Source: Chelativorans alearensis (GTDB taxonomy: Bacteria > Pseudomonadota > Alphaproteobacteria > Rhizobiales > Rhizobiaceae). Taken from it: a DNA stretch of 64,000 nt. This document shows, piece after piece, positions 17,230 to 46,247 of the stretch (its first letter is position 1; each line of letters starts with the position of its first letter). A program made the position numbers and the translations under genes. A model generated the notes under the pieces. The model was not told where the DNA came from. It saw only the letters and a program-made list of their open reading frames with translations, and did not search any database. The DNA is taken from positions 126,501 through 190,500 of the forward strand of contig NZ_WQNI01000005.1 of NCBI RefSeq assembly GCF_010993735.1, read 5' to 3'.

Positions 17230-17253
17230 GAAGTAGCCCCCGTGGCTTGCGTG
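17230..17253 (-). promoter_or_regulatory. Flagellar promoter element upstream of motA
   Basis: Minus-strand CACGCAAG, ten bases, then TA at positions 19-20 of the element. Its right-hand end is about 33 nt from the motA GTG. The spacing is the same as in five other flagellar leaders in this window. Confidence 0.6.
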
Positions 17254-17289
17254 AGGCTTGAAAGGGGGCGAACGGCCCGAAGAAAGCTT

Positions 17290-17313
17290 CGCACAAGGCA
17301 GGCCCGCTAGCTT
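17290..17313 (+). promoter_or_regulatory. Flagellar promoter element upstream of the DUF1217 gene
   Basis: CGCACAAG, ten bases, TAG, about 28 nt before the GTG at 17341. It is divergent from the motA element 37 bases away, so both operons are probably switched together. Confidence 0.6.
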
Positions 17314-17340
17314 CATCCTACGGAGTTGCGGGAGCCGGGC

Positions 17341-18117
17341 GTGATCAACACCTATACGAGCTATCAGCTGATAACGCGCGACATGGCGCAGTCCATCAGC
17401 CGCATCGAGGCGCAGCCGATCGTGAGCCGCGAGACGGAGTATTACCGTGCCAATATCGAGAATGTGAAATCGATCGAGGAGTTCGTCGCCGACGACCGCC
17501 TCTTCCGCTACGCCATGAAGGCGCACGGGCTGGACGACATGGCCTATGCCAAGGCCCTGATGGTCAAGGCGATGGAGGAGGGCGTCGACGACAAGGACAG
17601 CTTTGCCAACAAGCTGACCGACAAGCGCTACAAGGATTTCGTGGAAACCTTCAACTTCGCCCGCTACGGCGAGGAGACGACCACCTTCTACAGCCCCACG
17701 ACCGGCACCGTCGACAAATACCTGCGCCAATCGCTCGAGGAGGACGCCGGTGCTCGGAACGAAGGCGTGCGCCTGGCGCTCTATTTCGAGCGCAAGGCGG
17801 GCAGCCTGAAATCGTTCTACGAGGTGCTGGCCGACCCCGCCATGTCGCAGGTCGTGCGCACCGCGCTCGGCTTCCCCGACGAACTTGCCCAGGCCGACAT
17901 CGACAAGCAGGCGGAGATGTTCAAGGCCCGGATCGACCTCGAGGATTTCAAGGACCCCGAAAAGCTCAATGAGTTCCTCAAGCGCTTCACCGCGCTCTGG
18001 GAAGTCGAAAACCCGAGCAACAACGCGCAAAGCTCCATCGCTGCGCTGTTCACCCAGCCAGCCGAATTCGGCATTTCCACCGACGTTCTTCTGACCATTG
18101 CCCAGATGAGGAAATAG
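17341..18117 (+). CDS. DUF1217 flagellar-locus protein (GTG start)
   Basis: 258 residues. The GTG at 17341 (VINTYTSYQLITRD) has CGGGAG six bases upstream and matches the family's usual N-terminus; the TTG at 17326 is less likely. The sequence is mostly helical and charged, with no signal peptide or membrane segment. DUF1217 proteins are found in alphaproteobacterial flagellar loci; I know of no firm biochemical role. It is first in a unit with flgF, fliI and an unknown membrane protein, divergent from motA. Confidence 0.85.
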   Translation: MINTYTSYQLITRDMAQSISRIEAQPIVSRETEYYRANIENVKSIEEFVADDRLFRYAMKAHGLDDMAYAKALMVKAMEEGVDDKDSFANKLTDKRYKDFVETFNFARYGEETTTFYSPTTGTVDKYLRQSLEEDAGARNEGVRLALYFERKAGSLKSFYEVLADPAMSQVVRTALGFPDELAQADIDKQAEMFKARIDLEDFKDPEKLNEFLKRFTALWEVENPSNNAQSSIAALFTQPAEFGISTDVLLTIAQMRK

Positions 18118-18120
18118 ACC

Positions 18121-18840
18121 GTGCAGACCGGACTCTACGTCGCCCTGTCCTCTCAGATGGCGCTGGAGCGGCGGCTCACCACACTCGCCGACAATGTCGC
18201 CAATGCCGGCACCGTCGGCTTCCGCGCCGGCGGCATCACCTTCGACGATGTGATGAGCGGCCTCACCGACAAGTCGGTAAGCTTCGTCTCCGCCGGCGAC
18301 GACTTTTACGACACGCGCGCCGGCGGGCTTCAGGAGACCGGCAACCCCTTCGACTTCGCCGTGCAGGGCGACGCCTGGTTCGCCGTCGAGACGCAAGCCG
18401 GTCCGATGATGACGCGCGACGGCCGTTTCACCATGCTCGAGACGGGCGAGCTTGTCACGCTGGAAGGCCACCCCGTGCTCGACGCCGGCGGCGCGCCGCT
18501 GGTGCTCGACCCGCAGGCCGGCCCGCCCGAGGCCGGCGCCGACGGCACACTGCGCCAGAACGGCCAGCTTCTCGGCGCCATCGGGCTCTTCGCCTTCACG
18601 CCCGGCCCCAACACCCAGCGCTACGGCAACTCCGGCTTCCTGCCCCGCATGCAGCCACAGCCGGTGGTCGATCAGCCGGATGTCGGTGTGGCGCAAGGCT
18701 TCCTTGAGGACTCCAACGTCAATGCCGTTCAGGAGATGATGCGCCTGATCCAGGTGCAGCGCGCCTTCGAGCAGGTCACCACGCTGATGCGCGACAGCGA
18801 CACCTCGATGAAGGACGCCATCAAGACGATGGGCTCCTAA
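18121..18840 (+). CDS. flgF: Flagellar basal-body rod protein FlgF
   Basis: 239 residues from the GTG at 18121. It has the rod/hook family N-terminus (MALERRLTTLADNVANAGTVGFR) and C-terminal EDSNVNAVQEMMRLIQVQRAFEQV helix. FlgF is a proximal rod subunit exported through the flagellar apparatus, so it has no signal peptide. It lies three bases after the DUF1217 gene and its TAA overlaps the fliI ATG. Confidence 0.94.
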   Translation: MQTGLYVALSSQMALERRLTTLADNVANAGTVGFRAGGITFDDVMSGLTDKSVSFVSAGDDFYDTRAGGLQETGNPFDFAVQGDAWFAVETQAGPMMTRDGRFTMLETGELVTLEGHPVLDAGGAPLVLDPQAGPPEAGADGTLRQNGQLLGAIGLFAFTPGPNTQRYGNSGFLPRMQPQPVVDQPDVGVAQGFLEDSNVNAVQEMMRLIQVQRAFEQVTTLMRDSDTSMKDAIKTMGS

Positions 18841-20216
18841 TGGGCAGCAGTGCCGAGCGCGCGGGCGGCGACGCCCTGACAGCCCTGGAATCCGCTTATC
18901 TGCGCTTCCGCGAACCGCGCCACATCGTCAAGCATGGCGGCCGCATCTCCGAGGTCACCCCCGTGCACTACCGGGTGCGCGGCCTGTCGCGCGCGGCGCG
19001 CCTGGGCGATGTCGTCTCCTACCGCGCCCACGGCGCCGAGCACCGCGGCGAGGTCGTGCGCATCTCCGCCGAGGACGTCCTGGTGGCGCCCTTCGAGCGT
19101 AACGCCGAGGCGAGCCTCGGCCAGCCGGTTTTCACCGCCGGCCCGCTCGACATCGTCCCGCATGAGAGCTGGCGCGGCCGCGTCATCGACGCGCTGGGGC
19201 GTCCGGTGGACGATGGCCCGCCGCTCATCCGTCCGCCAGTCACGGCTGCCGGCAAGAAACCGCGCACGCCGCCGGCGCTGCGCCGCCAGCGCGTCGCCAC
19301 GCCCTTCCTCACCGGCGTGCGCGTCATCGACCTGTTCACCCCGCTCTGCCACGGCCAGCGCATGGGCATCTTTGCCGGTTCCGGCGTCGGAAAGTCGACG
19401 CTGCTTGCGATGCTGGCAAGGGCCGAGGCCTTCGAGACGGTGGTGGTGGCGATGATCGGCGAGCGCGGCCGCGAGGTGCGCGAATTCCTGGAAGACACCA
19501 TCGGCGAAGCCGGCATGAAGAAGACCGTCGCCGTTGTCGCCACCAGCGATGAGAGCGCCATGATGCGCCGCCGCGCCGCCGACGCCGCCATGCGCGTGGC
19601 CGAAAGCTTCCGCGACCGCGGCGAAAAAGTCCTGCTCATCCTCGATTCCATCACCCGTTACGCGCACGCCGCGCGCGAGGTGGCCACCGGGGCCGGTGAG
19701 CCGCCGGTCGCTCGCGGCTACCCCGCCTCCGTCTTCACCGACCTGCCGAAGCTCCTCGAACGCGCCGGGCCGGGCGAAGATGGCCGCGGGTCCATCACCG
19801 CCATCCTCTCCGTCCTCGTCGACGGCGACGACCACAACGATCCGGTGGCGGATTCGGTGCGCGGCATCCTCGACGGGCACATCGTGCTCGACCGGGCGGT
19901 CGCCGAGCAGGGCCGCTATCCGCCGGTCAATCCGCTCGCCTCCATCTCCCGCCTGGCCGACCGTGCCTGGAGCGACGACAAGCGCCTCCTGATCCAGCGC
20001 CTCAAGGCCATGATCGCCCGTTTCGAGGAAACCCGCGACATCCGGCTGCTGGGCGGTTTCCAGGCCGGCCTCGATGCCGAGCTGGACCTTGCCGTGCGCC
20101 AGGTGCCGGTCATCTACGACGTGCTGCGGCAAGGCCCGAAGGACCCGCCGGTGGCCGATCCCTTCGCCGAGCTCGCCACGCAACTGAAGGCCAGGGAGGC
20201 GCCCCGTGACGGATAA
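18840..20216 (+). CDS. fliI: Flagellum-specific ATPase FliI
   Basis: 458 residues, close to the family norm. FliI energises export of rod, hook and filament subunits. Walker A (FAGSGVGKST) lies near residues 178-187. The RGREVREF segment, the KVLLILDSITRYAHAAREVA Walker B region and the ERAGPGEDGRGSITAI segment are all typical. The ATG overlaps the flgF stop and the 3' end overlaps the next gene by 11 bases, implying strong coupling. Its partner FliH is encoded at 30315-30956. Confidence 0.97.
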   Translation: MGSSAERAGGDALTALESAYLRFREPRHIVKHGGRISEVTPVHYRVRGLSRAARLGDVVSYRAHGAEHRGEVVRISAEDVLVAPFERNAEASLGQPVFTAGPLDIVPHESWRGRVIDALGRPVDDGPPLIRPPVTAAGKKPRTPPALRRQRVATPFLTGVRVIDLFTPLCHGQRMGIFAGSGVGKSTLLAMLARAEAFETVVVAMIGERGREVREFLEDTIGEAGMKKTVAVVATSDESAMMRRRAADAAMRVAESFRDRGEKVLLILDSITRYAHAAREVATGAGEPPVARGYPASVFTDLPKLLERAGPGEDGRGSITAILSVLVDGDDHNDPVADSVRGILDGHIVLDRAVAEQGRYPPVNPLASISRLADRAWSDDKRLLIQRLKAMIARFEETRDIRLLGGFQAGLDAELDLAVRQVPVIYDVLRQGPKDPPVADPFAELATQLKAREAPRDG

Positions 20217-20808
20217 GCTCGCCGGCCTCGTGCTGCCCGACGCGACGCCCGTGGAAGAAACGGCGGAAGAGCCCACGAAGAGCAAAGGAAACTTCGGCCA
20301 CCGCAAAGCCCCCAGCGCCGGCGGTGAAGGCCGCGATTGGCTCACCATCGGCTGCGGCATCGGGCTGGCGGCCATATGCGCGCTGTTTCCCTGGTACATC
20401 TTCTTCAACCAGGAGGCATTCGGCATAAGGCCGCTGCAGTTCTCCGGGCGTCCGGGCGGCTTCGACGCCACCGGCCTTGCGGCGCGAGGCGAGCTCGTGG
20501 GCGAGCGCGTCCCTCTATCCGTCGACAGCTTCCCGCAGCTCGACTTCATCCCCACCGGCACGGTGCCCGCCACCCCGGCGTTTGACAACGACGACCCGCC
20601 GGAGCAACCCTACCCCGGCGATCGGCAAAGCTTCCGCCTTGTCGAGGCGGGCAACGGCCGGGCGATGATCGAGGACGAGGACGGCTTCTGGATCGTCGAG
20701 CGCGGCTCTCCCCTTCCCGACGGCAGCCACGTGGCGCAAATTCTGGAGCGCGAGGGAACCTGGATGCTGATTACGTCCAATAAGGCGGAAATCGCCCTTT
20801 CACGCTAA
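20206..20808 (+). CDS. Single-pass membrane protein of the flagellar locus, unknown function
   Basis: 200 residues from a GTG at 20206 that overlaps the end of fliI. The N-terminal 45 residues are basic and polar. One strong membrane segment follows (WLTIGCGIGLAAICALFPWYIFF, about 44-66), then a C-terminal region of about 135 residues that probably faces the periplasm. That region ends in a beta-rich module (FRLVEAGNGRAMIEDEDGFWIVERGSPLPDGSHV). I do not recognise a named domain. Overlap with fliI suggests a role near the export apparatus or basal body; this is inference. Confidence 0.78.
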   Translation: MTDKLAGLVLPDATPVEETAEEPTKSKGNFGHRKAPSAGGEGRDWLTIGCGIGLAAICALFPWYIFFNQEAFGIRPLQFSGRPGGFDATGLAARGELVGERVPLSVDSFPQLDFIPTGTVPATPAFDNDDPPEQPYPGDRQSFRLVEAGNGRAMIEDEDGFWIVERGSPLPDGSHVAQILEREGTWMLITSNKAEIALSR

Positions 20809-20863
20809 GCGTGGGGACAAGGGCAGAATACCTATATACCATTGATTTACCTATTTTACTATG

Positions 20864-20880
20864 CAATGTACAGTACATTG
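20864..20880. promoter_or_regulatory. Perfect 17-base palindrome, possible operator
   Basis: CAATGTAC-A-GTACATTG is a perfect inverted repeat in an AT-rich stretch (about 20830-20907), unlike the surrounding GC-rich genes. It ends 27 bases before the lipoprotein ATG, a plausible position for an operator over the promoter. The cognate regulator is not evident. Confidence 0.5.
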
Positions 20881-20907
20881 TAAACGCAACGTATTGGAAT
20901 AATTTTA

Positions 20908-21273
20908 ATGAAGAACCACCTTGCGCTTCTTGCCTGTCTCGCGCTTGCTGCGGGATGCGCGACGAAATCGACAGACATTGCTGCCAATTATGTTTCGGCC
21001 ACCCAGTACCAGAACTATAGCTGCGCTCAGCTTGCGGAAGAGGCCAGGGCCGTTTCCGCCAAGGCGGCCCAGCTTTCCGGCACGCAGGATAGACGCGCCA
21101 CGAACGACAAGTGGATCGTGGGGGCAGGCGTCATCGTCTTCTGGCCCGCGCTCCTCCTCACCAAAGGCAACGACCATCTCGCCGCCGAGCTTGGCCAGCT
21201 GAAGGGCGAGAAGGAAGCGATCGAGGCCGCAGCGCGCAAGAAGGGCTGCAGCATCCGCTTCAATCGCGGGTAA
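20908..21273 (+). CDS. Small lipoprotein with a C-terminal-half hydrophobic segment (121 aa)
   Basis: The signal and lipobox are clear (LALAAGC, Cys at residue 17). The mature part begins with STDIAANYVSATQYQNYSC, then a helical charged segment, a hydrophobic stretch (WIVGAGVIVFWPALLL) and a charged tail ending in a Cys. This matches a widespread family of small proteobacterial lipoproteins with YVSPxxYxxYxC and FWPALF motifs; its function is unknown to me. It has its own AT-rich leader and sits between two flagellar units. It may be an unrelated insertion. Confidence 0.85.
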   Translation: MKNHLALLACLALAAGCATKSTDIAANYVSATQYQNYSCAQLAEEARAVSAKAAQLSGTQDRRATNDKWIVGAGVIVFWPALLLTKGNDHLAAELGQLKGEKEAIEAAARKKGCSIRFNRG

Positions 21274-21329
21274 ACCCTGGCCCAAGCGCCGTGCCCTTTT
21301 CGGGACATAAAGTACTTTGCAATTATTGA

Positions 21330-21354
21330 CACCGGCCCGAAAACCGGGCCGGTG
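21330..21354. terminator. Strong hairpin between the lipoprotein gene and flgB
   Basis: Ten-base perfect stem CACCGGCCCG / CGGGCCGGTG with a five-base loop, without a U-run on the plus strand. It may act as a factor-dependent terminator or processing site for the lipoprotein mRNA. Confidence 0.4.
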
Positions 21355-21378
21355 CGACATGCTGACGGACGCAAGGCC

Positions 21379-21402
21379 CACGCAAGACTGGCGACATAGC
21401 CT
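21379..21402 (+). promoter_or_regulatory. Flagellar promoter element upstream of flgB
   Basis: CACGCAAG, ten bases, TAG, then CCT, 27 nt before the flgB ATG. Same spacing as the motA, DUF1217, fliF, flgE and flhA elements. Confidence 0.6.
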
Positions 21403-21428
21403 CGGATACAAATTCCGTGGGAGTCGCC

Positions 21429-21806
21429 ATGCAACCCGTCAACCTGTTCGATCTGGCCACGCAGCAGGCGCGCTGGCTCTCGGTGCGCCAGGCGGCGGTG
21501 GCCGGCAACATCGCCAACATCAACACGCCCGGCTACAAGGCCATCGACGTAGAGCCGTTCGAGAACGTGCTTACCAACAGCCGCGTCGCCATGCAGGCAA
21601 CCCACGCGGTGCACCAGAAGACCGGCGCGACCGCGGCCTCCTTCGCCCTCAACGAGCAGGAAGACCCGAAGCTCCTGCCGTCGGAAAACAGCGTCGTGCT
21701 GGAGGAGGAACTCGTCAAGTCCGGTGAGATCCGCCGCGCTTTCGAGCTCAACACGGCCATCGTCAAGGCCTTCCACCGCATGATGACCATGACGACGAGG
21801 AGCTAG
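21429..21806 (+). CDS. flgB: Flagellar basal-body rod protein FlgB
   Basis: 125 residues from the ATG at 21429 ([16 protein letters not shown]), which has GGGAG five bases upstream; a GTG at 21417 would add four residues. The rod-family motif ([21 protein letters not shown]) is intact. FlgB is a proximal rod subunit. First gene of the long flgB-to-fliP unit. Confidence 0.95.
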
Positions 21807-21810
21807 AGGG

Positions 21811-22233
21811 ATGGTCGACGCCCTTTCCACCGCCCTGAAAGTCGGCGGCTCCGGCCTCACTGCGCAGTCGGAGCGCATGCGCATCGTCTCCGAAAACCTT
21901 GCCAATGCCCAGTCGACCAGCGACATCCCCGGCGGCGATCCCTACCGGCGCAAGACCGTCAGCTTCTCCGCCGAGCTCGACCGCGCAACCGGCGGCAGCA
22001 TGGTCGAGGTCTCGGCGATCGCCCGCGATCCGACGGCCTTCCCGGTCGAGTTCCAGCCCGGCCACGAGGCCGCCGACGAACTCGGCTACGTCAAGATGCC
22101 CAACGTGAACATGCTGGTTGAAATGGCCGACATGCGCGAGGCAAACCGCGGCTACGAGGCAAACCTGCAAACCATCAAGCAGGCGCGGGAGATGATTTCA
22201 ATGACCATCGACCTGTTGCGGAGCAACTCATGA
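21811..22233 (+). CDS. flgC: Flagellar basal-body rod protein FlgC
   Basis: 140 residues. The N-terminal segment ([21 protein letters not shown]) and the C-terminal [24 protein letters not shown] helix are diagnostic for the FlgC proximal rod subunit. It lies 4 bases after flgB, and its end overlaps the fliE start by 4 bases (ATGA). Confidence 0.96.
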
Positions 22234-22532
22234 TCACCGGCATCGGCAACATCGCCCCGCTTTCGGGCACGCAATCGATCTTTCCCGAAACGAGAACGGC
22301 AGAGGTCGCCACCGGCGACGCCTTCTCGGCCATGGTCACCGAGCTTGCCACCAACACGGTTACACGGCTCGAAAACGCCGAGGACCTGTCGCTCAAGGCG
22401 CTCGAGGGTGAGGCCGATACGCGCGCCGTGGTCGACGCGGTGATGAGCGCCGAACAGTCGCTGCAGGCGGCCATCGCCATCCGCGACAAGATCGTCAACG
22501 CCTATCTCGACATCAGCCGCATGGCGATCTGA
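22230..22532 (+). CDS. fliE: Flagellar hook-basal body complex protein FliE
   Basis: 100 residues, the usual length. FliE links the MS ring to the rod and is one of the first exported subunits. The C-terminal half ([36 protein letters not shown]) carries the conserved helix. Position between flgC and flgG is the normal order. Confidence 0.95.
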
Positions 22533-22543
22533 GGAGCAAGCCC

Positions 22544-23332
22544 ATGAAAGCCCTGTCCATCGCCGCCACCGGCATGAACGCCCAGCAGACAAACCTGGAA
22601 GTCATCGCCAACAACATCGCCAACATCAACACCACCGGCTTCAAGCGCGCCCGTGCCGAGTTCTCCGACCTGCTCTACCAGGTGGAGCGGCTTCAGGGCG
22701 TGCCGGAGCGGGCGAACCAGAACATCGTCCCGGAAGGCGCCAATATCGGCCTCGGCGTGAAGACGGCGGCCGTGCGCAACGTGCATATCCAGGGATCGCT
22801 CAACAACACCGGCAACAAGTTCGACGTGGCGCTGGTTGGCAAGGGCTGGTTCGAGATCGGCGGCGCGGATGGCGAGCCGCTCTACACCCGCGCCGGCGCC
22901 TTCAATACCAACGCCAACGGCGAGCTCGTCACCGTCGACGGCTTCCCAGTCATGCCGGCCATTGTCGTGCCGGAAGATGCGGTGGACGTCATCATCAACA
23001 AATCCGGCCAGGTCTTCGCTCGCATCGATGGGCAGAACGAGTTGCAGGAACTTGGGCAGCTCACGCTCGCCACCTTCTCCAACGAAGCCGGCCTCGCCCC
23101 CATCGGCAACAATCTCTTCCGCGAGACCGTGGCCTCCGGCCCCGCCAATGTCGGCGTGCCGGGCGATCCCGGCTTCGCCACCGTCGAGCAGGGCTATCTG
23201 GAAGATTCCAACGTCGACCCGGTGAAGGAGATCACAGACCTGATCTCCGCCCAGCGCGCCTACGAGATGAACTCCAAGGTCATCCGCGCGGCCGACGAGA
23301 TGGCCGCCACCGTTACCCAGTCAATGCGGTAG
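22544..23332 (+). CDS. flgG: Flagellar distal rod protein FlgG
   Basis: 262 residues, full length. It begins [24 protein letters not shown] and has the rod/hook motif [15 protein letters not shown]. The C-terminus ([33 protein letters not shown]) is typical of FlgG. GAGGAGC precedes the start. Followed directly by flgA and flgI, whose products build the P-ring around this rod. Confidence 0.97.
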
Positions 23333-23339
23333 GGCGATC

Positions 23340-23813
23340 ATGCGCGGCGGCTTTCTCAAACGGCGTGTCTGGCTGGCGGGGCTCCTTGCGGCCCTGCCGC
23401 TCCTTTCCGCCCCTGCCGCCGCCCAGGAGACGGTGGTCGTCCCCGTCCGCGTGATCTATCCCGGCGAGACCGTCTCGGCCGACGTGCTGGACGAAGTATT
23501 ACTGCGCCACCCTCGGAGCGGCATGGCGGCCATCGCCCGCCTGCCCGAGGACCTCGACGGCAAGGTCGCGCGACGCACGCTTCTGCCGGGCCGGCTGGTG
23601 CCACTGTCATCCGTACGCGAACCTTATCTGGTCGAGAAGGGCGCAGCCGTAACGGTGGTCTTCTCCGAAGGCGCGCTGACGATTTCCCTCTTGGCCGTAT
23701 CGCTGCAATCAGGCGCCGCCGGCGACCTCGTCAAGCTGCGCAACGCCGACAGCGGCGCCGTCATCACCGGCATCGTCATGGGCGACGGCACCGTCAGGGT
23801 CGGCGCGTCATGA
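23340..23813 (+). CDS. flgA: P-ring assembly chaperone FlgA
   Basis: 157 residues with a signal peptide (LAGLLAALPLLSAPAAAQ). The mature part is the SAF-type FlgA domain (VPVRVIYPGETVSADVLDEVLLRH...) and ends DGTVRVGAS. FlgA helps FlgI polymerise in the periplasm. It is short, as in other alphaproteobacteria. Its TGA overlaps the flgI ATG. Confidence 0.93.
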   Translation: MRGGFLKRRVWLAGLLAALPLLSAPAAAQETVVVPVRVIYPGETVSADVLDEVLLRHPRSGMAAIARLPEDLDGKVARRTLLPGRLVPLSSVREPYLVEKGAAVTVVFSEGALTISLLAVSLQSGAAGDLVKLRNADSGAVITGIVMGDGTVRVGAS

Positions 23814-24913: not shown

Positions 24914-24922
24914 GAGCGAGCG

Positions 24923-25447
24923 ATGAAGAGGAGCTTCTGTGCAAGAACCGCAGCGCCGGCAGGACGGACAAGGCTGCCGCTGGCCGCTCTCGCCACCGTC
25001 GTTCTCCTGTCCGTGCCCGGCGCCCGTGCCGCCGATACAGCGAATGCGCCAGAGGACGAGGTGGAGCGTTTCTGCACCAACATCGCCGATGCCGCGCGCG
25101 ACCGGCGCTACGCGCTGCAGGCGCAGGAGCTGGACGGGCTGCGCGGCGAGGTCGATGCGCGCATCGCCGCCCTTGAGGAAAAACGTGCCGAATACGAAGC
25201 CTGGCTCGCACGCCGCGACGCCTTCCTCGCCAGGGCCGAGGGCAACCTCGTCGAGATCTACTCCAACATGCGGCCCGACGCCGCCGCCGAGCGCCTGGCC
25301 GAAGTGCGGGCGGAGCTCGCGGCGGCCATCCTGATGAAGCTCGAGCCGCGCACGGCAGGCGTTATCCTCAACGAGATGAACAGCAAGGACGCCGCCGCCC
25401 TGACCACCATCATGGCAAGCGCGGCCCGTCCTGAGGATCCATCATGA
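24923..25447 (+). CDS. motE: Periplasmic motility chaperone MotE (MgtE-N-like domain)
   Basis: 174 residues. A long basic N-region and hydrophobic core (LAALATVVLLSVPGARA) form a signal peptide. A coiled-coil segment follows (about residues 65-110), then the short MgtE-N-like end (MKLEPRTAGVILNEMNSKDAAALTTIM). In Sinorhizobium meliloti MotE is the periplasmic chaperone of MotC; MotC is encoded at 32254-33399 here. Overlaps flgH by 4 bases. Confidence 0.88.
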   Translation: MKRSFCARTAAPAGRTRLPLAALATVVLLSVPGARAADTANAPEDEVERFCTNIADAARDRRYALQAQELDGLRGEVDARIAALEEKRAEYEAWLARRDAFLARAEGNLVEIYSNMRPDAAAERLAEVRAELAAAILMKLEPRTAGVILNEMNSKDAAALTTIMASAARPEDPS

Positions 25448-26151: not shown

Positions 26152-26162
26152 AGGCGAGGAAC

Positions 26163-27403: not shown

Positions 27404-27406
27404 ATA

Positions 27407-27451: not shown

Positions 27452-27506
27452 ACAAAACAAAAAGTTCACGAATAATTTCACCTGATTACGATTTGGTAGG
27501 AAGTTC

Positions 27507-27597: not shown

Positions 27598-27638
27598 GTC
27601 CCTCAAAAATCTCCATTCGAATCAAAGGGGCACTTCCT

Positions 27639-28582: not shown

Positions 28583-28616
28583 ATGGGGCCGTCTCGTGCG
28601 GCCCCATTTCATTTTC
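28583..28616 (+). terminator. Terminator of the flagellin gene
   Basis: Nine-base stem ATGGGGCCG / CGGCCCCAT with a seven-base loop, followed by TTCATTTTC. It lies 30 bases after the flagellin stop and abuts the fliF promoter element. Confidence 0.8.
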
Positions 28617-28639
28617 GCACAAGCTTCGACCGCTAGTCT
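28616..28639 (+). promoter_or_regulatory. Flagellar promoter element upstream of fliF
   Basis: CGCACAAG, ten bases, TAG then TCT, about 33 nt before the fliF TTG. The first 13 bases are identical to the flhA element at 42865-42888. In Brucella the regulator FtcR is known to bind the fliF promoter. Confidence 0.65.
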
Positions 28640-28671
28640 CGCCCCGGTTCATTGCTGGGAGTATCGGGGCG

Positions 28672-35342: not shown

Positions 35343-36014
35343 ATGATTGTCGTTGTGGACGAACGCGAACTCGTAACCGATGGGTACACATCACTTTTCG
35401 GCCGAGAAGGCGTTGCCACCGCGGGTTTCGGGCCCGGCGAATTCGGCGAATGGGTGGAAACGGCGGCCGAAGACGACCTGAAGGCGGTCAGCGCCTTCCT
35501 CCTCGGCCAATGCGATACGCCGGAGAAGCCGGCGCGAAGCATCCGCGATAGGTCGAACGCGCCGGTCATCGCGTTGAGCGAGCAGAACTCCCTCGAAGAC
35601 ACGCTGAGGCTTTTCGAATACGGCGTCGACGATGTGGTGCGCAAGCCGGTGCATGTGCGCGAAATCCTCGCCCGCATCGCCGCCATCAGCCGCCGCACCC
35701 AGCAGCAGGACACGAGCTTCACCGAGGTCGGGCCGATGCGCATCTACGCCGACGGCCGTGACCCGGAGATCGACGGCGAGCCCCTGCCCCTGCCGCGCCG
35801 TGAGCGGCGCATCCTCGAATACCTCGCCGGCAACGCCTCCCGCCGCGTGACCAAGACGCAGATCTTCAACGCCATCTACGGCATCTTCGACGAGGAAGTC
35901 GAAGAGAACGTCGTGGAAAGCCACATCAGCAAGCTGCGCAAGAAACTGCGCACCAGGCTGGGCTTCGATCCCATCGAATCCAAACGCTACCTCGGATACC
36001 GGCTGGTCACCTGA
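35343..36014 (+). CDS. ftcR: Flagellar transcriptional regulator FtcR (Rem), OmpR-type
   Basis: 223 residues. An N-terminal receiver-like domain ([19 protein letters not shown]... to about 120) precedes a winged-helix DNA-binding domain ([32 protein letters not shown]...[13 protein letters not shown]...YLGYRLV). FtcR of Brucella and Rem of Sinorhizobium control basal-body genes. The receiver keeps the Lys in VRKPV, but where the phosphorylated Asp is expected the sequence reads AVSAFLLGQ with no acidic residue. Activity may therefore not depend on phosphorylation. The AT-rich leader (35218-35342) lacks the CRCRCAAG-N10-TA element, consistent with ftcR acting upstream of that regulon. Confidence 0.93.
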
Positions 36015-36039
36015 GGCCGCGCAGGCGGCAGACCAGCTT

Positions 36040-36063
36040 CACGCAAGTCCCATCGGCTAGCCT
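36040..36063 (+). promoter_or_regulatory. Flagellar promoter element upstream of flgE
   Basis: CACGCAAG, ten bases, TAG then CCT, 36 nt before the flgE ATG and directly downstream of ftcR. Same spacing as the other five elements. Confidence 0.6.
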
Positions 36064-36098
36064 TTGCCCCGAATGCGCAAAGCGACGAGAGGTCCGCG

Positions 36099-37349: not shown

Positions 37350-37380
37350 TTGATGTGAAGAGGGGTCGAGAAAGGAAGCA

Positions 37381-38829: not shown

Positions 38830-38831
38830 CC

Positions 38832-39872: not shown

Positions 39873-39913
39873 CGACATATCCGTGACGACCAGGAAGCGA
39901 GACCTCAGACCCC

Positions 39914-40261
39914 ATGTACCAGTTTTCCTATAGCGAGGTTCAGACGGATTCGGTTGCCGACGCGAAGGACCGCGAGCGCCAGTTGCTGACACGCTCCATC
40001 GACCTTCTCGCCACAGCGCGCGACGCCGGGCCGAATGCGCGCGAGACGATCGAGGCCATCCTGTTCATGAACCGGGTGTGGACCTCGCTCATCAGCGACC
40101 TGGGCAGCCCCGACAACGAGCTGCCGAAGGAGCTGCGCGCCAACCTGATCTCCATCGGCCTGTGGCTTCTGCGCGAGGGCGAGGAGGTGCGCCAGGGCCG
40201 CTCGGACAATTTCGATGGGCTTATCGAGGTCTCGCAGATCATCCGCGACGGGCTGAAATGA
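39914..40261 (+). CDS. flaF: Flagellin biosynthesis regulator FlaF
   Basis: 115 residues, all soluble and helical. The motifs [24 protein letters not shown] and [38 protein letters not shown] are characteristic. FlaF is needed for flagellin synthesis or export in Caulobacter and Brucella and works against FlbT. It ends in ATGA, overlapping flbT. Confidence 0.95.
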
Positions 40262-40695
40262 CCAACACGCTCAAGATATCGCTCAAAGCCGGCGAGAAGA
40301 TCTATGTCAACGGTGCCGTCATCAAGGTCGACCGCAAGGTCTCGCTGGAGTTCCTGAACGACGTGCAGTTCCTGCTGCAGAATCACGTCCTCCAGCCGGA
40401 GGACGCGAAGACGCCGCTGCGCCAGCTCTATTTCATCGTGCAGATCATGCTGATGAACCCCGACGGCGGGGACAACGCGCACGAACTCTTCCGCCGGACC
40501 CTTGCCAACCTGCTTGCCACCTTCCGCAACGAGCCCGTGCTGGCCGGGCTGAAGCACGTCGACACGCTCGTATGCGAGGGCCAGGTCTACGAGGCGCTGA
40601 AGGCGATCCGCGCGCTCTATCCGTTGGAAGAGGAAATCCTGGAAGGGCCGCGCCGGCACCAGGAAACCGCATTCGCCAAGGCCGTAGGGGAATAG
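40258..40695 (+). CDS. flbT: Flagellin post-transcriptional repressor FlbT
   Basis: 145 residues from the ATG at 40258, coupled to flaF. Conserved N-terminus ([41 protein letters not shown]) and IVQIMLMNP segment. In Caulobacter FlbT binds the flagellin mRNA leader and lowers its stability until the hook is complete. A likely target here is the structured leader at 27507-27597. Confidence 0.95.
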
Positions 40696-40697
40696 AC

Positions 40698-41087
40698 ATG
40701 AACGTTTCGACCGTAACCGGCACCGCGCAGGACCAGACCAGCACCGCCGCGCCTCAGGCCGTGGACTACCAGTCCTTCCTCAAGCTGCTCGTCGCCGAGA
40801 TGAAGAACCAGGACCCGACGAGCCCGATGGAATCCACCGACTACGTGGCCCAGCTCGCCAGCTTCTCCCAGGTTGAGCAGTCCGTGCAGATCAATGACAA
40901 GCTGGAACAGATCCTCGCCGCCTCCTCGCTCTCCCAGGCAGGCAGCCTCGTCGGCCGCGAGATCACCTCGGCCGACGGCACGGTGACCGGCATCGTCTCG
41001 GAGGTGAAGCTCTACAGCGACGGCGTGGTCGCCAAGCTCGAAGGCGGCCAGGAAGTGATCGTCGGCCCCGGCGTCGTGATCCGCTGA
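40698..41087 (+). CDS. flgD: Hook assembly protein FlgD
   Basis: 129 residues, a short FlgD as in other rhizobia. The conserved N-terminal domain (VDYQSFLKLLVAEMKNQDPTSPMESTDYVAQLASFSQVEQSVQIN) is complete. The C-terminal immunoglobulin-like part of enterobacterial FlgD is missing and replaced by a short beta segment. FlgD is the hook-cap scaffold. It begins 2 bases after flbT and precedes fliQ by 3 bases. Confidence 0.94.
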   Translation: MNVSTVTGTAQDQTSTAAPQAVDYQSFLKLLVAEMKNQDPTSPMESTDYVAQLASFSQVEQSVQINDKLEQILAASSLSQAGSLVGREITSADGTVTGIVSEVKLYSDGVVAKLEGGQEVIVGPGVVIR

Positions 41088-41090
41088 CCC

Positions 41091-41357
41091 ATGAACGAGG
41101 CCGACGCCCTCGACATCGTCCAGTATGCCATCTGGACGGTGCTGATCGCCGCCAGCCCGGCGGTGATCGTCGCCATGGTCGTCGGCATCGGCATCGCGCT
41201 CGTCCAGGCGCTGACCCAGGTGCAGGAAATCACCCTCACCTTCGTCCCCAAGATCGTCGCCATCCTGTTGGCCGTGGCCTTTTCCGGACCCTTCGTCGGC
41301 GCGCAGATATCCTCTTTCACGACGGTGATCTTCCAGCGGATCGAGAACAGCTTCTAA
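41091..41357 (+). CDS. fliQ: Flagellar export-gate protein FliQ
   Basis: 88 residues, standard length. Two membrane segments flank VQEITLTFVPKI. FliQ is part of the FliPQR export channel. It normally precedes flhA and fliR in related genomes; here a 1.5-kb sigma-factor module separates them. Confidence 0.96.
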   Translation: MNEADALDIVQYAIWTVLIAASPAVIVAMVVGIGIALVQALTQVQEITLTFVPKIVAILLAVAFSGPFVGAQISSFTTVIFQRIENSF

Positions 41358-41405
41358 CGCTGTGACTCCCGCGATCCGCTGCGATTACAAAAAATCTCGC
41401 CCGCG

Positions 41406-41432
41406 TGTCACATACCGGCGATCCATCTCGTC
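41406..41432 (+). promoter_or_regulatory. ECF41-type sigma promoter
   Basis: TGTCACA, exactly 16 bases, then CGTC. This is the known ECF41 target-promoter pattern. It lies 37 bases before the ATG of the AhpD-like gene, whose product pairs with the ECF41 sigma factor encoded next, so the module is probably autoregulated. Confidence 0.85.
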
Positions 41433-41469
41433 ATGTCATCGGGAATTGTCCCTGATGAAGGAGATCGAC

Positions 41470-41928
41470 ATGACACCACGACTGGACCCCTTTGCCGCCG
41501 CGCCCGCTTCCCTGCAATCCTTCCTCGCCTTTGGGAAGGACATTATCGGCAGCGGCTTGGAACCCAGCCTGATGGAACTGGTGAAGATACGTGCCTCGCA
41601 GATCAACGGCTGCGCCCGCTGCCTTCACATGCACACAACCGACGCCCGGGCGAAGGGCGAGACGGAGGAGCGCCTCTATCTGCTCGACGCATGGCGCGAA
41701 TCGCCACTCTACAGCGAGCGTGAACGCGCCGCGCTTGCCTGGACCGAAGCCCTGACGCTGGTGGCGGAGACGCGCGCGCCCGATGACGTGTATGATGCGC
41801 TGCAGGCTCAGTTCACCGAGGAGGAACAGGTGAATCTCACCCTGCTGATCGTAGCCATCAACGGCTGGAACCGGGTCCAGGTCGGCTTTCGCGGCATCCA
41901 CCCGGTCGAAAAGCGCCAAGCCGCCTGA
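41470..41928 (+). CDS. Carboxymuconolactone decarboxylase / AhpD-family protein, ECF41 partner
   Basis: 152 residues from the ATG at 41470, with AGGAG six bases upstream. The alkylhydroperoxidase-like active site CARCLHMH gives Cys48, Cys51 and His55. Proteins of this family are the usual partners and targets of ECF41 sigma factors. The redox or other substrate is unknown. The stop overlaps the sigma-factor ATG (TGATG). Confidence 0.9.
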   Translation: MTPRLDPFAAAPASLQSFLAFGKDIIGSGLEPSLMELVKIRASQINGCARCLHMHTTDARAKGETEERLYLLDAWRESPLYSERERAALAWTEALTLVAETRAPDDVYDALQAQFTEEEQVNLTLLIVAINGWNRVQVGFRGIHPVEKRQAA

Positions 41929-42806
41929 TGGCGGGGATTCCCAGCCAGGACGCAGCGGCGGCCTTCGATCCGCTGCGTCCGCGATTGATCCGCGTCGCCT
42001 ATCGGATGCTGGGATCCGTTGCCGACGCGGAGGACATCGTACAGGAGGCGTTCCTGCGCTGGCTCAACACCGATCGCGATGCGGTGCGGGAGCCCGAAGC
42101 CTATCTCCGCCGCATCGTGACGCGTCTGTGCCTCGATCATCTGAAATCCGCCCGCCACCGCCGCGAGACCTATGTAGGGCCATGGCTGCCGGAACCGGTC
42201 ATCGAGGAGGAGGACGAGATCGACGACGACGTCACGCTGCCGCTGATGATGGCGCTGGAGCGCCTGTCGCCGCTCGAACGCGCCGCCTTTCTCCTCCATG
42301 ACGTGTTCGGCGTCGGCTTCGATGAGGTTGCCGCGACGATCGGGCGCGAGCCGGCGGCCTGCCGTCAGCTCGCGAGCCGCGCGCGCGGTCACGTGCGCGC
42401 CGCGCGCCCGCGCTTCGCGGTGCCGAAGGAGCGCGTCCTGGAAATCGCCTCCGCCTTCTTCGCGGCCTCCCGCGGCGGCGACATGCAGCAACTGCGCTCG
42501 CTCCTGGCGGAAGATGTGACCATCTACGCCGATGGCGGCGGCAAGGCACCGGCCGCGCCGCGGCCGATCGTCGGGCTCGAAGGCGCCATGCAACTCCACG
42601 CCTCGCTCGCCCGTCTTTTCGCCGAGAATATGTCGCAACTCGTGCGTTACGGCTTCATCAACGGCTTGCCCGGGTTCGTCACGGTCGAGCCGGGCGATAT
42701 CCTGCAGACCACCGCGCTGCAGATCGAGGACGGGAAGATCGCCGCGATCTACATCACCCGCAATCCCGACAAGCTGGCGCATGTGAAGGATCACGTGGTC
42801 CACTGA
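41928..42806 (+). CDS. ECF41-family RNA polymerase sigma factor with SnoaL-like C-terminal domain
   Basis: 292 residues. Sigma region 2 (RVAYRMLGSVADAEDIVQEAFLRW) and region 4 (LSPLERAAFLLHDVFGVGFDEVAATIG) are followed by a SnoaL-like extension. All three ECF41 signature motifs are present: WLPEP (86-90), DGGGK (202-206) and NPDKL (279-283). In this family the C-terminal domain controls sigma activity in place of a separate anti-sigma factor. It lies between fliQ and flhA, so its transcription may run toward flhA. Confidence 0.94.
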   Translation: MAGIPSQDAAAAFDPLRPRLIRVAYRMLGSVADAEDIVQEAFLRWLNTDRDAVREPEAYLRRIVTRLCLDHLKSARHRRETYVGPWLPEPVIEEEDEIDDDVTLPLMMALERLSPLERAAFLLHDVFGVGFDEVAATIGREPAACRQLASRARGHVRAARPRFAVPKERVLEIASAFFAASRGGDMQQLRSLLAEDVTIYADGGGKAPAAPRPIVGLEGAMQLHASLARLFAENMSQLVRYGFINGLPGFVTVEPGDILQTTALQIEDGKIAAIYITRNPDKLAHVKDHVVH

Positions 42807-42864
42807 CCGGCCAACGATCTGGCGGCGGTGCACACACGCTGCCGCCAGACGCCCTTTCCGCCCT

Positions 42865-42888
42865 CGCACAAGCTTCGCCGCCTATCCT
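42865..42888 (+). promoter_or_regulatory. Flagellar promoter element upstream of flhA
   Basis: CGCACAAG, ten bases, TA, then TCCT, 22 nt before the flhA ATG. It gives flhA its own start downstream of the ECF41 module. Confidence 0.62.
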
Positions 42889-42909
42889 CCCGCCCACATG
42901 GAGGCGTGA

Positions 42910-44997
42910 ATGGCGTTGAGCGAAGGCATTGTCGGCAGCGAACCCCGCAAGCACAGCCGGGACATTGGCTTTGCCGTCGGCGTCATCATTATTCTGGCGA
43001 TCCTGTTCCTGCCGATCCCGCCTTTCCTCATCGACGTCGGCCTCGCCTTCTCCATCGCCTTCTCGGTGCTCATCCTGATGGTGGCGCTGTGGATCCAGCG
43101 CCCGCTCGACTTCTCCTCCTTCCCCACCATCCTCCTGATCGCCACCATGATGCGCCTGTCGCTCAACATCGCGACGACGCGCATGATCCTGTCCGAGGGC
43201 CACGAGGGCACCAACGCGGCGGGTCATGTCATCGGCGGCTTCTCCAAGCTGGTGATGAGCGGCGACTTCGTCATCGGCCTGATCATCTTCCTGATCCTCG
43301 TCGTCGTGAACTTCGTCGTCATCACCAAGGGCTCGACCCGCATCGCCGAGGTCGGCGCGCGCTTCACGCTCGATGCCATTCCCGGCAAACAGATGTCGAT
43401 CGACGCGGACCTGTCCGCCGGCATGATCGACGACAAGGAGGCCCAGCGCCGGCGCCGCGAGCTGGAGGAGGAGAGTTCCTTCTTCGGCGCCATGGACGGC
43501 GCATCGAAATTCGTGCGTGGAGACGCCGTCGCCGGCCTCATCATCACCGCCATCAACATCGTCGGCGGCATCGCCATCGGCTATTCCCGCCACGACATGG
43601 ACCTCGGCGAGGCCTCGGACGTCTTCACCAGGCTTTCGGTGGGCGACGGCCTCGTCTCGCAGATTCCTGCCCTCATCGTCTCGCTCGCCGCTGGCCTGCT
43701 CGTCTCCAAGGGGGGCACGCGCGGCTCGGCCGACAAGGCCGTATTCGACCAGTTGGGCGCTTATCCGCGTGCCCTCTTCGTGGCGGCCATGCTGCTTGCC
43801 GTTCTCGCCCTGATGCCGGGCCTGCCGGCTCTGCCCTTCCTGGCGCTGGCCGGCACCATGGCCGGGCTCGGCTATCTGCTGCCGCGCCGCGAACGGCAGC
43901 GAGAGGAGGCCGCCGCCGAGGCCGTGCGCCGCGAGAAGCTCGACGCCGTCGAGGAGGAGCGCAACTCGGTCAAATCCTCGCTCAAGACGGCGGAGATCGA
44001 GCTTTTGATCGGCAAGCAGCTTTCCACCCGGCTCATCGCCTCGCATCAGGAGCTCGCCTTCCGCATGAACAAGATGCGGAAGAAATTCGCCGCGCAATAC
44101 GGCTTCGTCGTGCCCGAGGTGCGGCTCACCGACGACTTCACCATCCCGCCCAAGAGCTACCGCATCAATATCCATGGCACGGTCGTGGCCGAGCACCGCC
44201 TGCGCGTCGGCGAGCTGATGGTGCTTTTGGGCGGCAAGCCGGCGCCCGACCTGCCGGGCGAAGAGGTGAAGGAGCCCGCCTTCGGCCTGCGCGCCTATTC
44301 GGTCTCCGACATGTTCGCCGAGGAACTGAAGAACAAGCAGCTTGCCTACGCCGACAACATGTCGGTTCTGCTCACGCACCTTTCCGAGGTGATCCGCAAC
44401 AACCTGCCGCAGCTTCTCTCCTACAAGGATATGAAGGCGCTGATCGACCGGCTCGACCCCGAGTACCGCAAGCTGGCCGACGAGATCTGCTCCTCGCACA
44501 TCACCTACCCCGGCCTCCAGGCGGTCCTGAAGCTGCTCTTGGCCGAGCGCATCTCCATCCGCAACCTGCATCTCATCATCGAGGCCATCGCCGAGATCGC
44601 CCCGCATATCCGCCGCACGGAGCAGATCGTCGAGCACGTGCGCATCCGCATGGCGCAGCAGATCTGCGGCGATCTGAGCGAGGGCGGCGTCCTCAAGGTG
44701 CTCCGCCTCGGCAACCGCTGGGACCTCGCCTTCCACCAGGCGCTGAAGCGCGACCCCAAGGGCGAAGTGCGCGAGTTCGACATCGACCCGCGCCAGCTCG
44801 AGGAGTTCGGCCAGGAAGCGGGCAAGGCAATCCGCAACCACATCGACGCCGGCGAGCGCTTCGTGCTTGTAACGGCCCCCGAGGCCCGCCCCTACGTGCG
44901 CATGATCGTCGAGCGCCTGTTCCCGACCCTGCCGGTGCTGAGCCACGTCGAGATCGCCAAGGGCGTGGAGATCAGCGTCCTGGGGTCGATCTCCTAA
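42910..44997 (+). CDS. flhA: Flagellar export-gate protein FlhA
   Basis: 695 residues, full length. Eight membrane segments fill the first half. The FHIPEP-family loop includes DATPGKQ-like [20 protein letters not shown] and [21 protein letters not shown]. The C-terminal cytoplasmic domain (about 350-695) contains [19 protein letters not shown] and binds export cargo and chaperones. FlhA is the proton-driven export gate. Confidence 0.97.
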
Positions 44998-45048
44998 CCG
45001 TCAATGCCGAGCCCCCTTCCCCCACCACGCCCAGTATCGCGGTAACCA

Positions 45049-45795
45049 ATGCTGGAAACCGCCATCCTCGCCGCCTTCCTCGCCTTCTGCCGCATCGGCG
45101 CCTGTTTCCTCCTCCTGCCGGGGCTGGGGAGCGCGCGCGTTCCCGTGCAGGTCCGTCTCTTCGTCGCCGTCGGCGCCTCGCTGGCGCTGCTTGCGCATCT
45201 GTGGGAGGCGATCGTGCCGCATGTCTCGCGCCAACCCCAGGCGATGCTCGTCCTCATCGGTTCCGAGCTCCTCATCGGCGCGCTGATCGGCCTCGTCGCA
45301 CGCTTCTACGTGCTGGCGCTCCAGTTCATCGGCGCCGCCATGGCCATGATGATGGGCTATGGCATGGCCGGCGGCGGCGTGGCGGTCGAGGAGAACGAGC
45401 CGCAGCCGGCGGTCGCCGCCCTCATCTCCTTTTCCGCACTGCTTCTGCTTTTCGTGTTCGATTTCCACCATGCCATCATCCAGGCGCTGGTGGCTTCCTA
45501 CCGGCTGGCGCCCATCGACGCCCTGTTCGACCCGCAATCCGCGCTTGTCGACCTCTCCGACACCCTCTCCGCGGCCTTCTTCGTGATGATCAGGCTCGGC
45601 AGTCCCTTCGTGGCCTATGCGATCCTGGTCAACCTCGCCATCGGTTTCATCAACAAGCTGACGCCGCAGATCCCCATCTACTTCATCTCGCTCCCCTTCG
45701 TCATCGCCGGCGGCCTGTTGCTCCTCTACTTCGGCATCGGCACCTTCCTGCGCCTCTTCGCCGACGGCTTCTTCCCGACAACCATCGGCGGGTGA
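45049..45795 (+). CDS. fliR: Flagellar export-gate protein FliR
   Basis: 248 residues with six membrane segments, normal for FliR. The segment FCRIGACFLLLPGLGSARVPVQVRLFVAVG and the VNLAIGFINKLTPQIPIYFISLPFVIAGGLLLLYFG end are characteristic. It completes the FliPQR channel. It follows flhA by 51 bases and precedes a FliJ-like gene by 4. Confidence 0.96.
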   Translation: MLETAILAAFLAFCRIGACFLLLPGLGSARVPVQVRLFVAVGASLALLAHLWEAIVPHVSRQPQAMLVLIGSELLIGALIGLVARFYVLALQFIGAAMAMMMGYGMAGGGVAVEENEPQPAVAALISFSALLLLFVFDFHHAIIQALVASYRLAPIDALFDPQSALVDLSDTLSAAFFVMIRLGSPFVAYAILVNLAIGFINKLTPQIPIYFISLPFVIAGGLLLLYFGIGTFLRLFADGFFPTTIGG

Positions 45796-45799
45796 AGCG

Positions 45800-46183
45800 A
45801 TGACGGTGGACAGGCGGCAAAAGCTGGCACGGCTCGTAAAGCTTCAGGAGCGCCTCAAGGAACTGCACGAGGCCCGCCGCGCCACGCACTTGAAGGAAGC
45901 AGCCATGGCCGAAGCCGAGGCGGCGGAGCTTGCAGAGCGCCTGGACGCGCCCGACAGCCTGGCAGCCCTCTTTCCCGCGCTCTATCATGACCGCATCGCC
46001 CGTGCCCTCACCCGCAAGGAGAAGTGCCTGGAGCGCGCCGCCGAAGAGGCCGCCATGGTCGCCGCTGCCGGCGCCCGCGCGGATGTGGCCGGGCGCGCCC
46101 ACACGAGCGCGGTGCGCAGGCATGAAAGGGCGGCCGAGGAAAAGGCTGTGCTGGAGCTGCTGGAGCAGCAGCGCGAGCCCTGA
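45800..46183 (+). CDS. fliJ: FliJ-like coiled-coil protein
   Basis: 127 residues, almost entirely helical and rich in Ala, Glu, Arg and Leu (KLARLVKLQERLKELHEARRATHLKEAAMAEAEAAELAERL). This matches FliJ, the export chaperone-escort that contacts FliI and FlhA, in size, charge and coiled-coil nature. No other fliJ candidate is in the window. Sequence identity in this family is low, so the name rests on layout and position after fliR. Confidence 0.62.
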   Translation: MTVDRRQKLARLVKLQERLKELHEARRATHLKEAAMAEAEAAELAERLDAPDSLAALFPALYHDRIARALTRKEKCLERAAEEAAMVAAAGARADVAGRAHTSAVRRHERAAEEKAVLELLEQQREP

Positions 46184-46223
46184 GCGGCCGGATTTGAACG
46201 GCAAATCACGCCGGGCAAGCCTG

Positions 46224-46247
46224 CCGCAAGCTTTCCCTGCCATAGTC
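46224..46247 (+). promoter_or_regulatory. Variant flagellar promoter element upstream of flgJ
   Basis: CCGCAAG followed by TAG, with two more bases between the halves than in the six other elements. It sits 33 nt before the flgJ GTG. It may be a weak site or chance. Confidence 0.3.

Follow-up and report, generated by a model that had tools for sequence, protein, structure and literature searches.

A promoter-like element of fixed geometry stands at the heads of flagellar transcription units in a 64,000-nt stretch of the Chelativorans alearensis genome (contig NZ_WQNI01000005.1, positions 126,501 to 190,500; hereafter the window). The element comprises two direct half-sites followed at constant spacing by a -10-like hexamer, and the same cluster encodes FtcR (Rem, LafR), an orphan OmpR-type regulator. 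Sequence comparisons show that this is a real element kept across families, and most likely a binding box for FtcR/Rem fused to the -10 hexamer of class II promoters. An earlier reading made without database searches (the sequence-only reading) had described the core of the motif, CRCRCAAG-N10-TA, and proposed that it was either the FtcR/Rem site or the core promoter of the basal-body class. The evidence now favours both at once, since the 11-bp repeat suits a dimer of the OmpR/PhoB family to which FtcR belongs, TAnnnT occurs at one offset and the element is associated with the FtcR type of flagellum. Six, and probably eight, flagellar gene blocks carry the signal.

Position and anatomy of the element

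The CRCRCAAG-N10-TA pattern was counted on both strands of the window. Six matches were obtained as compared to a mean of 0.17 (standard deviation 0.40, largest 2) in 100 dinucleotide shuffles. All six 20-mers were intergenic (17234-17253 on the minus strand; 17290-17309, 21379-21398, 28616-28635, 36040-36059 and 42865-42884 on the plus strand), and the genes that follow were confirmed with Pfam, by which gene names in the window were assigned, as motA, the DUF1217 gene, flgB (a rod gene of the flgB type), fliF, flgE and flhA, in agreement with the earlier list. The distance from motif end to start codon, previously put at 22-36 nt, was recounted as 25-39 nt, with gaps of 36 nt for motA and fliF, 39 nt for flgE, 25 nt for flhA and, assuming GTG and ATG starts read by eye, 31 nt for DUF1217 and 30 nt for flgB. 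The description of the terminal TA as usually TAG held for four of the six copies but not for motA (TAC) or flhA (TAT). Of the degeneracy proposed for CRCR, only CACG and CGCA were found among the window's six; CGCG was never seen there but is common in relatives.

Extended forms of the element were scored with several models. Matrix M was trained only on 80 named loci (L001-L080; 1.59 Mb), which are the best 80 of a longer FtcR scan list and derive from Chelativorans, Nitratireductor, Mesorhizobium, Aminobacter and their kin; its clean tests were loci L081-L180 and Sinorhizobium meliloti. Matrix W2 was built from 64 non-iterated matches in other genomes, with the window as its clean test. This matrix was used in place of an unsupervised iterated matrix, which was discarded because of drift, its matches in regions of the other flagellum type (group B) having risen from 19 to 97. 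A sequence-only model, R1, was additionally employed. Cut-offs were M >=14 for regions, M >=8 or W2 >=10 upstream of single genes and M >=12 in S. meliloti.

Conservation extended beyond the original pattern on both sides. In the named loci, CA(T/G)YYT was conserved immediately 5' of the CRCRCAAG motif, and in 157 of 161 sites the fifth base after the T of TA was also a T, which extends TA to TAnnnT. The extended form is [CAGCTTCGCGC][AAGCTTnGnnn]-NN-[TAnnnT], in which two direct half-sites 11 bp apart are followed by the -10-like hexamer, and 102 aligned sites from many families yielded the consensus CAGCTTCGCGCAAGCTTnGnnnnCTAnnnTnn. The box is 22 bp long with a repeat of about 18 bp and ends 2 bp before TAnnnT. 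Self-matching of 163 sites gave its highest value, 0.386, when the shift was 11 bp (other offsets from 3 to 16 gave 0.185-0.313), and this offset was also the highest in a broader set of 364 sites collected with the drifted matrix (0.375 versus 0.215-0.294), although these counts are not independent because the sites are related by descent. Dimers of the OmpR/PhoB family bind direct repeats with an 11-bp period.

The spacing between box and hexamer was examined by scoring sites on the box alone. Of 268 named-locus sites, 188 had TAnnnT at one and the same offset, and no other offset had it in more than 3. Among 179 box-only sites from other families, TAnnnT occurred at that offset in 38, versus <=1 elsewhere, and nAnnnT in 87, versus <=17, the first T often being substituted outside the named loci. 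Some of the box-only sites are background, as the reversed box matched 50 places in the named-locus set and 36 in the other-family set; group B regions exhibited no box enrichment (19 matches versus 18 for the reversed box). The box columns were taken from W2, and the matrix used to pick the W2 training sites included the hexamer. Inspection of the consensus detected no -35 hexamer at a spacing of 16-18 bp. The T, A and T of TAnnnT are the three strongest positions of the sigma-70 -10 hexamer.

Ranked by W2, the best sites of the window preceded fliF, flgE, DUF1217, flhA, motA, flgJ, flgB and the gene after flhB, in that order (Table 1), followed by matches of 14.9 and 10.2. Operon-internal genes scored <6, and reversed W2 reached >=10 at two places, >=12 at one and >=14 at none. 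Against this control, the looser copy that the sequence-only reading had placed ahead of flgJ was upheld, and a new weak site, absent from its list, was accepted in the 3' end of flhB. As the flgJ copy scores only 0.8 with M and R1 gives both copies few bits, these two sites lean mainly on same-gene sites in S. meliloti and other genomes; the gene after flhB has a stronger site in locus L228 and in S. meliloti (M 26.4). A longer reading of the open reading frame (ORF) after flhB, 12411-12896, matched no Pfam family. The flagellin and ftcR leaders gave best W2 scores of only -2.7 and -1.7, consistent with the earlier claim that both lack the motif. The W2 match of 14.9 (56340-56371, plus strand) probably arose by chance; it sits immediately ahead of ORF 56390-57562 but overlaps the end of the ORF before it.

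Table 1. Sites of the extended element in the window, and the regulator proposed to bind them.
Feature	Position	Strand	Scores and remarks	Parallels
Extended site before motA (start GTG at 17197)	17228..17259	-	M 21.7, W2 25.1; last position of the -10-like hexamer C, not T	motA site also in S. meliloti and other families
Extended site before DUF1217-flgF-fliI unit	17284..17315	+	R1 21.0 bits, W2 28.5	S. meliloti, Phyllobacterium, other families
Extended site before flgB-flgC-fliE-flgG unit	21373..21404	+	W2 21.7; R1 12.3 bits, E 1.25	S. meliloti, Phyllobacterium, other genomes
Extended site before fliF	28610..28641	+	-10-like TAGTCT at 28634-28639; R1 22.5 bits, the genome's best; W2 31.2	
Extended site before flgE, directly 3' of ftcR	36034..36065	+	-10-like TAGCCT at 36058-36063; W2 28.6	
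Extended site before flhA-fliR	42859..42890	+	W2 26.6	
Weaker site before flgJ (rod-binding gene 46280-46813, PF10135)	46217..46248	+	CATAGT replaces TAnnnT; W2 22.8, M 0.8, R1 8.0 bits, E 0.35	flgJ sites in other genomes
Weaker site in flhB 3' end, before ORF 12411-12842 (143 aa)	12930..12961	-	M 15.0, W2 17.5; R1 5.3 bits, E 2.7	
ftcR, orphan OmpR-type regulator, proposed binder of the box	35343..36014	+	Trans_reg_C; weak Response_reg, just under the Pfam cut-off	

Conservation and association with the FtcR type of flagellum

Specificity was first evident within the genome itself. The bare 20-mer is unspecific on its own, as the 5.7 Mb of the genome contain 24 copies (six in the window) versus 38 of the reversed control pattern. 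Equal frequency away from flagellar genes, which the sequence-only reading had named as grounds for abandoning its proposal, concerns only the bare 20-mer (18 of 24 copies lie elsewhere) and not the extended element. R1 returned nine matches at an expectation value (E) <=10, of which the top five (E <0.03) and the seventh (flgB, E 1.25) were the six flagellar sites and the other three had E >1; near-identical C. xinjiangense copies of the fliF, flgE and flhA sites were in the R1 training set, and none of the motA, DUF1217 or flgB sites. Within this genome, nothing in these matches pointed to a regulon that reaches past the flagellar genes.

The exact pattern was found 196 times in the 80 named loci, with 191 copies located before fliF (72), flgE (74) or flhA (45); of the remaining five, two were nearest flgF, one was nearest flagellin and two were without a placed gene. 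When loci in which the gene was not found were left out (8 of 80 for fliF, 3 for flgE and 35 for flhA), a site was present before fliF in 72 of 72, flgE in 74 of 77 and flhA in 44 of 45. The distance from site to projected start ranged from 25 nt to >100 nt across loci.

More distant clusters were examined for two named species. The plasmid record of S. meliloti Ak57 (CP090106.1) contains a flagellar cluster and a Rem homologue with 69.9% identity to the window FtcR. Eight sites scored >=12 with M, preceding fliF (31.5), the gene after flhB (26.4), motA (12.6), the DUF1217 gene (presumably the gene known as orf38; 16.5), flgB (19.1), the motB unit (38.8), flgE (22.8) and flhA (28.8), the last being unannotated in this record and placed in the present analysis. 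Gaps between these sites and annotated starts ranged from 28 to 291 nt, and neither reversed M nor reversed W2 gave a match in the cluster. With W2, weaker sites were also detected before fliN, fliK and flgJ together with two matches lacking a following gene. In Phyllobacterium zundukense, W2 sites preceded DUF1217, flgB, fliF, flgE, flhA and flgJ, the DUF1217 site scoring only 4.1 with M. Rem is described as directly responsible for class II gene activation in the accessible portion of PMC9812332, and the portion of PMC8429497 consulted states that Rem activates class II genes and names fliM, orf38 and assembly and motor genes as targets.

The FtcR-type flagellum was then compared with the other flagellum type of the order. 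FliF matches split into type A (>=356 bits) and type B (<=242 bits), and a close FtcR was counted by hand, among the matches listed, in 54 of 199 genomes (E <=2.5e-49; next genome 1.2e-25). Again among matches listed, 64 regions around FtcR or type-A fliF (43 genomes) and 36 regions around type-B fliF (36 genomes) were sampled. At M >=14, the FtcR-type regions (1.27 Mb) gave 52 matches, spread over 29 of the 64, and reversed M gave 0; the type-B regions (0.72 Mb) gave no match, and reversed M gave 2. By genome, and omitting two Mesorhizobium-like genomes, matches were present in 23 of 41 FtcR-type versus 0 of 36 type-B genomes (p = 8e-9).

Scoring upstream of single genes, counted on full-length regions, gave the same division. 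For type A, M >=8 was reached before fliF in 17/38, flgE in 15/28, flhA in 5/12, motA in 6/6 and flgB in 3/5, versus 0/36 for fliF and 0/26 for flhA of type B. At W2 >=10, in type-A regions that partly served for training, the frequencies were 27/38 for fliF, 22/28 for flgE, 8/12 for flhA, 6/6 for motA, 5/5 for flgB, 4/6 for DUF1217 and 3/45 for ftcR, as compared to 1/36 for fliF and 0/26 for flhA of type B. No site was found before the operon-internal genes flgC (0/8), fliE (0/6), flgH (0/19), motC (0/34), fliI (0/6) and flgK (0/21). R1 was applied to all 199 genomes and produced matches at E <=0.01 in 35 of 54 FtcR genomes versus 2 of 145 others (G070 and G243), and at E <=0.1 in 49 of 54 versus 26 of 145. 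When genomes that had supplied training sites were set aside, 12 of 25 matched at E <=0.01 (p = 4.9e-10), a figure that overstates the tie because G000, G204 and G329 are near training kin, the best matches of G266, G312 and G284 lie off flagellar genes and G337 is unchecked. In a class-wide scan of 142 genomes, roughly one for each family, CRCRCAAG-N10-TANNNT matched in 118 and by eye showed no excess over the reversed control; the bare pattern is too loose to be informative.

Genomes that carry both flagella, two of which may be Bradyrhizobium-like, permitted comparisons within a cell. In all seven genomes with both types and a placed fliF start, type-A fliF was preceded by a site with a W2 score of 19.8-26.0 (the G303, G338 and G248 sites were in the W2 training set), whereas type-B fliF of these seven and of an eighth genome scored <=4.7 (8/8). 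The type-A side of a further genome, G318, scored 11.3. The CtrA site TTAA-N7-TTAA was absent from 83 upstream regions of type-A genes (fliF 0/39, flgE 0/32, flhA 0/12) and present in type-B regions L145-L180 before 7 of 36 fliF and 6 of 26 flhA genes, the background being 0.32 and 0.56 per 20 kb. A CtrA promoter was rejected as the identity of the element on the basis of its absence from these 83 FtcR-type regions.

Candidate binding factors and the proposed promoter

Properties of the window FtcR are consistent with a role as the binding protein. Its closest solved chains were RegX3, response regulator D (1kgs) and PrrA; it is 100% identical to the C. xinjiangense FtcR, and the DNA-binding part is well conserved among 45 homologues. 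Ser50 aligns to the phospho-acceptor aspartate of RegX3, which the window receiver lacks. Across 46 sequences, this column contained Glu in 23, Gln in 15, Arg in 3, Asp in 3, Ser in 1 and Lys in 1, in agreement with the description of Rem, in the available part of PMC9812332, as belonging to an aspartate-less receiver class.

We infer that the early (class II) flagellar operons have this motif as their promoter, built of two parts at rigid spacing. The 22-bp box [CAGCTTCGCGC][AAGCTTnGnnn] would occupy about -36 to -15 and TAnnnT, 2 bp further on, would be the -10 hexamer at -12 to -7. The direct repeat, standing in place of a -35 hexamer, would be bound by a dimer of the cluster's own FtcR (Rem, LafR), which from this position would recruit RNA polymerase with the housekeeping sigma factor. 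Regulation would then be by activation, and the box-bearing operons would be turned on together once FtcR is made.

Several results weigh against this interpretation or limit its reach. The association with FtcR is inseparable from an association with the whole ftcR-carrying cluster, and both W2 and R1 were partly trained on genomes that were later scanned. Even with W2, 11 of 38 type-A fliF starts fell below threshold, and no clear fliF copy was seen by eye in the g196, f159 and G142 regions inspected; in the f165 genomes G168 and G266 a drifted fliF copy was discerned by eye with the spacing CAAG-N10-nAnnnT or TAAG-N10-nAnnnT kept. The window ftcR has no site upstream, although the B. melitensis FtcR is reported at its own promoter in the portion of PMC9456535 consulted. 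The motif derived for that protein by chromatin immunoprecipitation sequencing (ChIP-seq), TGTGGGCA, was found in just 1 of 407 upstream regions checked.

It is unlikely that FtcR acts further upstream and that the box is the target of a different activator or repressor, be it VisN/VisR, CtrA, MucR or some unknown factor. Block inheritance of the cluster could account for both FtcR and the box, and the published ChIP-seq motif of FtcR differs (PMC9456535, in the part available). CtrA sites were confined to the type-B side of the comparison above (0/83 for FtcR-type regions, as against 7/36 fliF and 6/26 flhA genes of type B). Direct repeats fit an OmpR-type protein, unlike the palindrome of LuxR-type proteins (textbook). 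VisNR is reportedly absent from B. diazoefficiens and A. caulinodans, both of which keep Rem homologues (PMC8429497, in the section consulted), and the box occurs in the FtcR-type system of two-flagella genomes, no search for visNR having been made. VisNR and sigma-54 were set aside on a basis that included no search aimed at visNR genes or sigma-54 sites.

Still less probable is an activator-free core promoter of an alternative sigma factor (extracytoplasmic function (ECF) or FliA-like) in which CRCRCAAG serves as an unusual -35. A sigma site of two parts would account for the fixed spacing to a -10-like hexamer, and a gene for an ECF sigma factor (41928-42806) lies just ahead of flhA. The upstream 11-bp direct repeat of about 18 bp, however, exceeds the size of a -35, and the 10 bp from CAAG to TA fall short of the usual -35/-10 spacer. 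A search of the 80 named loci turned up no relative of the ECF gene, whereas the motif stands in 44 of the 45 that reach flhA. A search of the genome for FliA gave three weaker sigma-70-type matches, none over the TIGR02479 cut-off, and a FliA (sigma-28) promoter was set aside on this result. A leader-RNA or translational element, or a chance likeness kept by common descent, is scarcely credible: the six main window sites do lie no more than a few tens of nt from the start codon, but this distance varies from 25 to >100 nt across loci while box-to-TAnnnT spacing is constant, the same sequence precedes unrelated genes and operon-internal genes lack it (flgC, fliE, flgH, motC, fliI and flgK all 0).

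Relation to described systems and further observations

What appears to be new is the site with its geometry, the regulator and its targets being known already. A literature search on Rem, FtcR and LafR sites found no consensus of this form in the texts covered; the primary papers (Rotter 2006, Alakavuklar 2021 and Leonard 2007) were outside its scope and may print one. Rem-dependent class II promoters of Sinorhizobium, Rhizobium and Agrobacterium (Rotter 2006 and Tambalo 2010, as reported in citing papers) depend on the same regulator family, and the S. meliloti cluster has the box at the corresponding operons. In Brucella melitensis, the accessible text of PMC9456535 describes a homologous regulator with fliF as a target, as here, and assigns TGTGGGCA to 118 of 363 peaks. 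That motif differs from the box in sequence and has neither a direct repeat nor a fixed -10; its only copies in the window (2287, 6925 and 49235) were on the opposite strand.

Two other promoter classes offer parallels. Promoters of the PhoB/PmrA type, at which a class II activator acts, have an 11-bp direct repeat that overlaps the -35 region and keep a sigma-70 -10. The element described here differs in half-site sequence, in a box-to--10 gap of 2 bp that is closer than that of the pho box, and in having as its proposed activator an FtcR without the phospho-acceptor aspartate. CtrA-dependent promoters of Caulobacter and of Rhodobacter fla2 likewise use an OmpR-type regulator with a two-part site near -35 that activates flagellar operons (PMC6180460, in the part available), with TTAA-N7-TTAA as the site, which was found upstream only in part of the other flagellum type.

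These comparisons make it reasonably likely that the FtcR-type flagellum of the Hyphomicrobiales has a private promoter cassette (an 11+11-bp box, a 2-bp gap and TAnnnT, without a -35) at nearly all early operons across families, that bacteria with two flagella are therefore wired apart, one system being served by FtcR boxes and the other, at least in part, by sites of the CtrA type, and that the Brucella motif does not describe the flagellar site. According to the portions consulted, the Rem homologue LafR of Bradyrhizobium diazoefficiens governs lateral but not polar flagella (PMC8429497), and ctrA is the master of the subpolar flagellar set (PMC10888616). In rhizobia and related bacteria, pathogens included, Rem, FtcR and LafR act as the master switches of the flagellum, and the literature searched gave no sequence for their binding at flagellar operons. 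A consensus of fixed geometry would allow candidate regulons to be drawn from sequence alone and start sites to be predicted nearly to the base; the box also casts doubt on the published FtcR motif and suggests separate switches for the two flagella of one cell.

A variant box, mostly with CAAC for CAAG, was present about 160 nt before flagellin in some Mesorhizobium-type loci (L081, L076, L078, L080, L020 and others). It was found in 7 of 59 named loci at W2 >=14. In other families, 15 of 36 full-length regions have copies, with a median distance to flagellin of 157 nt; the window flagellin lacks it. Copies of the box outside flagellar clusters preceded a gene for a methyl-accepting chemotaxis protein (MCP) chemoreceptor (L206:1043-2749), a serralysin-like M10 protease with RTX repeats (L198:2582-3817) and a DUF2336 gene (L204). 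Some of these non-flagellar copies may mark regulon members and others may be due to chance. The same unannotated ORF was preceded by the box in two f165 genomes, G266 and G312 (L190 and L194), of which G266 has the drifted fliF site; this ORF is a possible extra regulon member.

An orphan FtcR-like gene with 47% identity was present on a plasmid of Microvirga sp. VF16 (L232:19959-20627), in a 40-kb stretch without annotated flagellar genes, and is preceded at about 140 nt by a site resembling the box (M 13.8). Between flgD and flhA of the window, positions 41362-42806 contain a carboxymuconolactone-decarboxylase-family gene together with the ECF sigma gene. No relative of either was found among the 80 named loci, of which 45 extend to flhA, so this segment appears to have been inserted locally into the flagellar cluster. 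Three fliF matches each contained one in-frame TGA (G287, C124:12339-14039; G272, C1:1641829-1643445; G297, C5:28657-30273).

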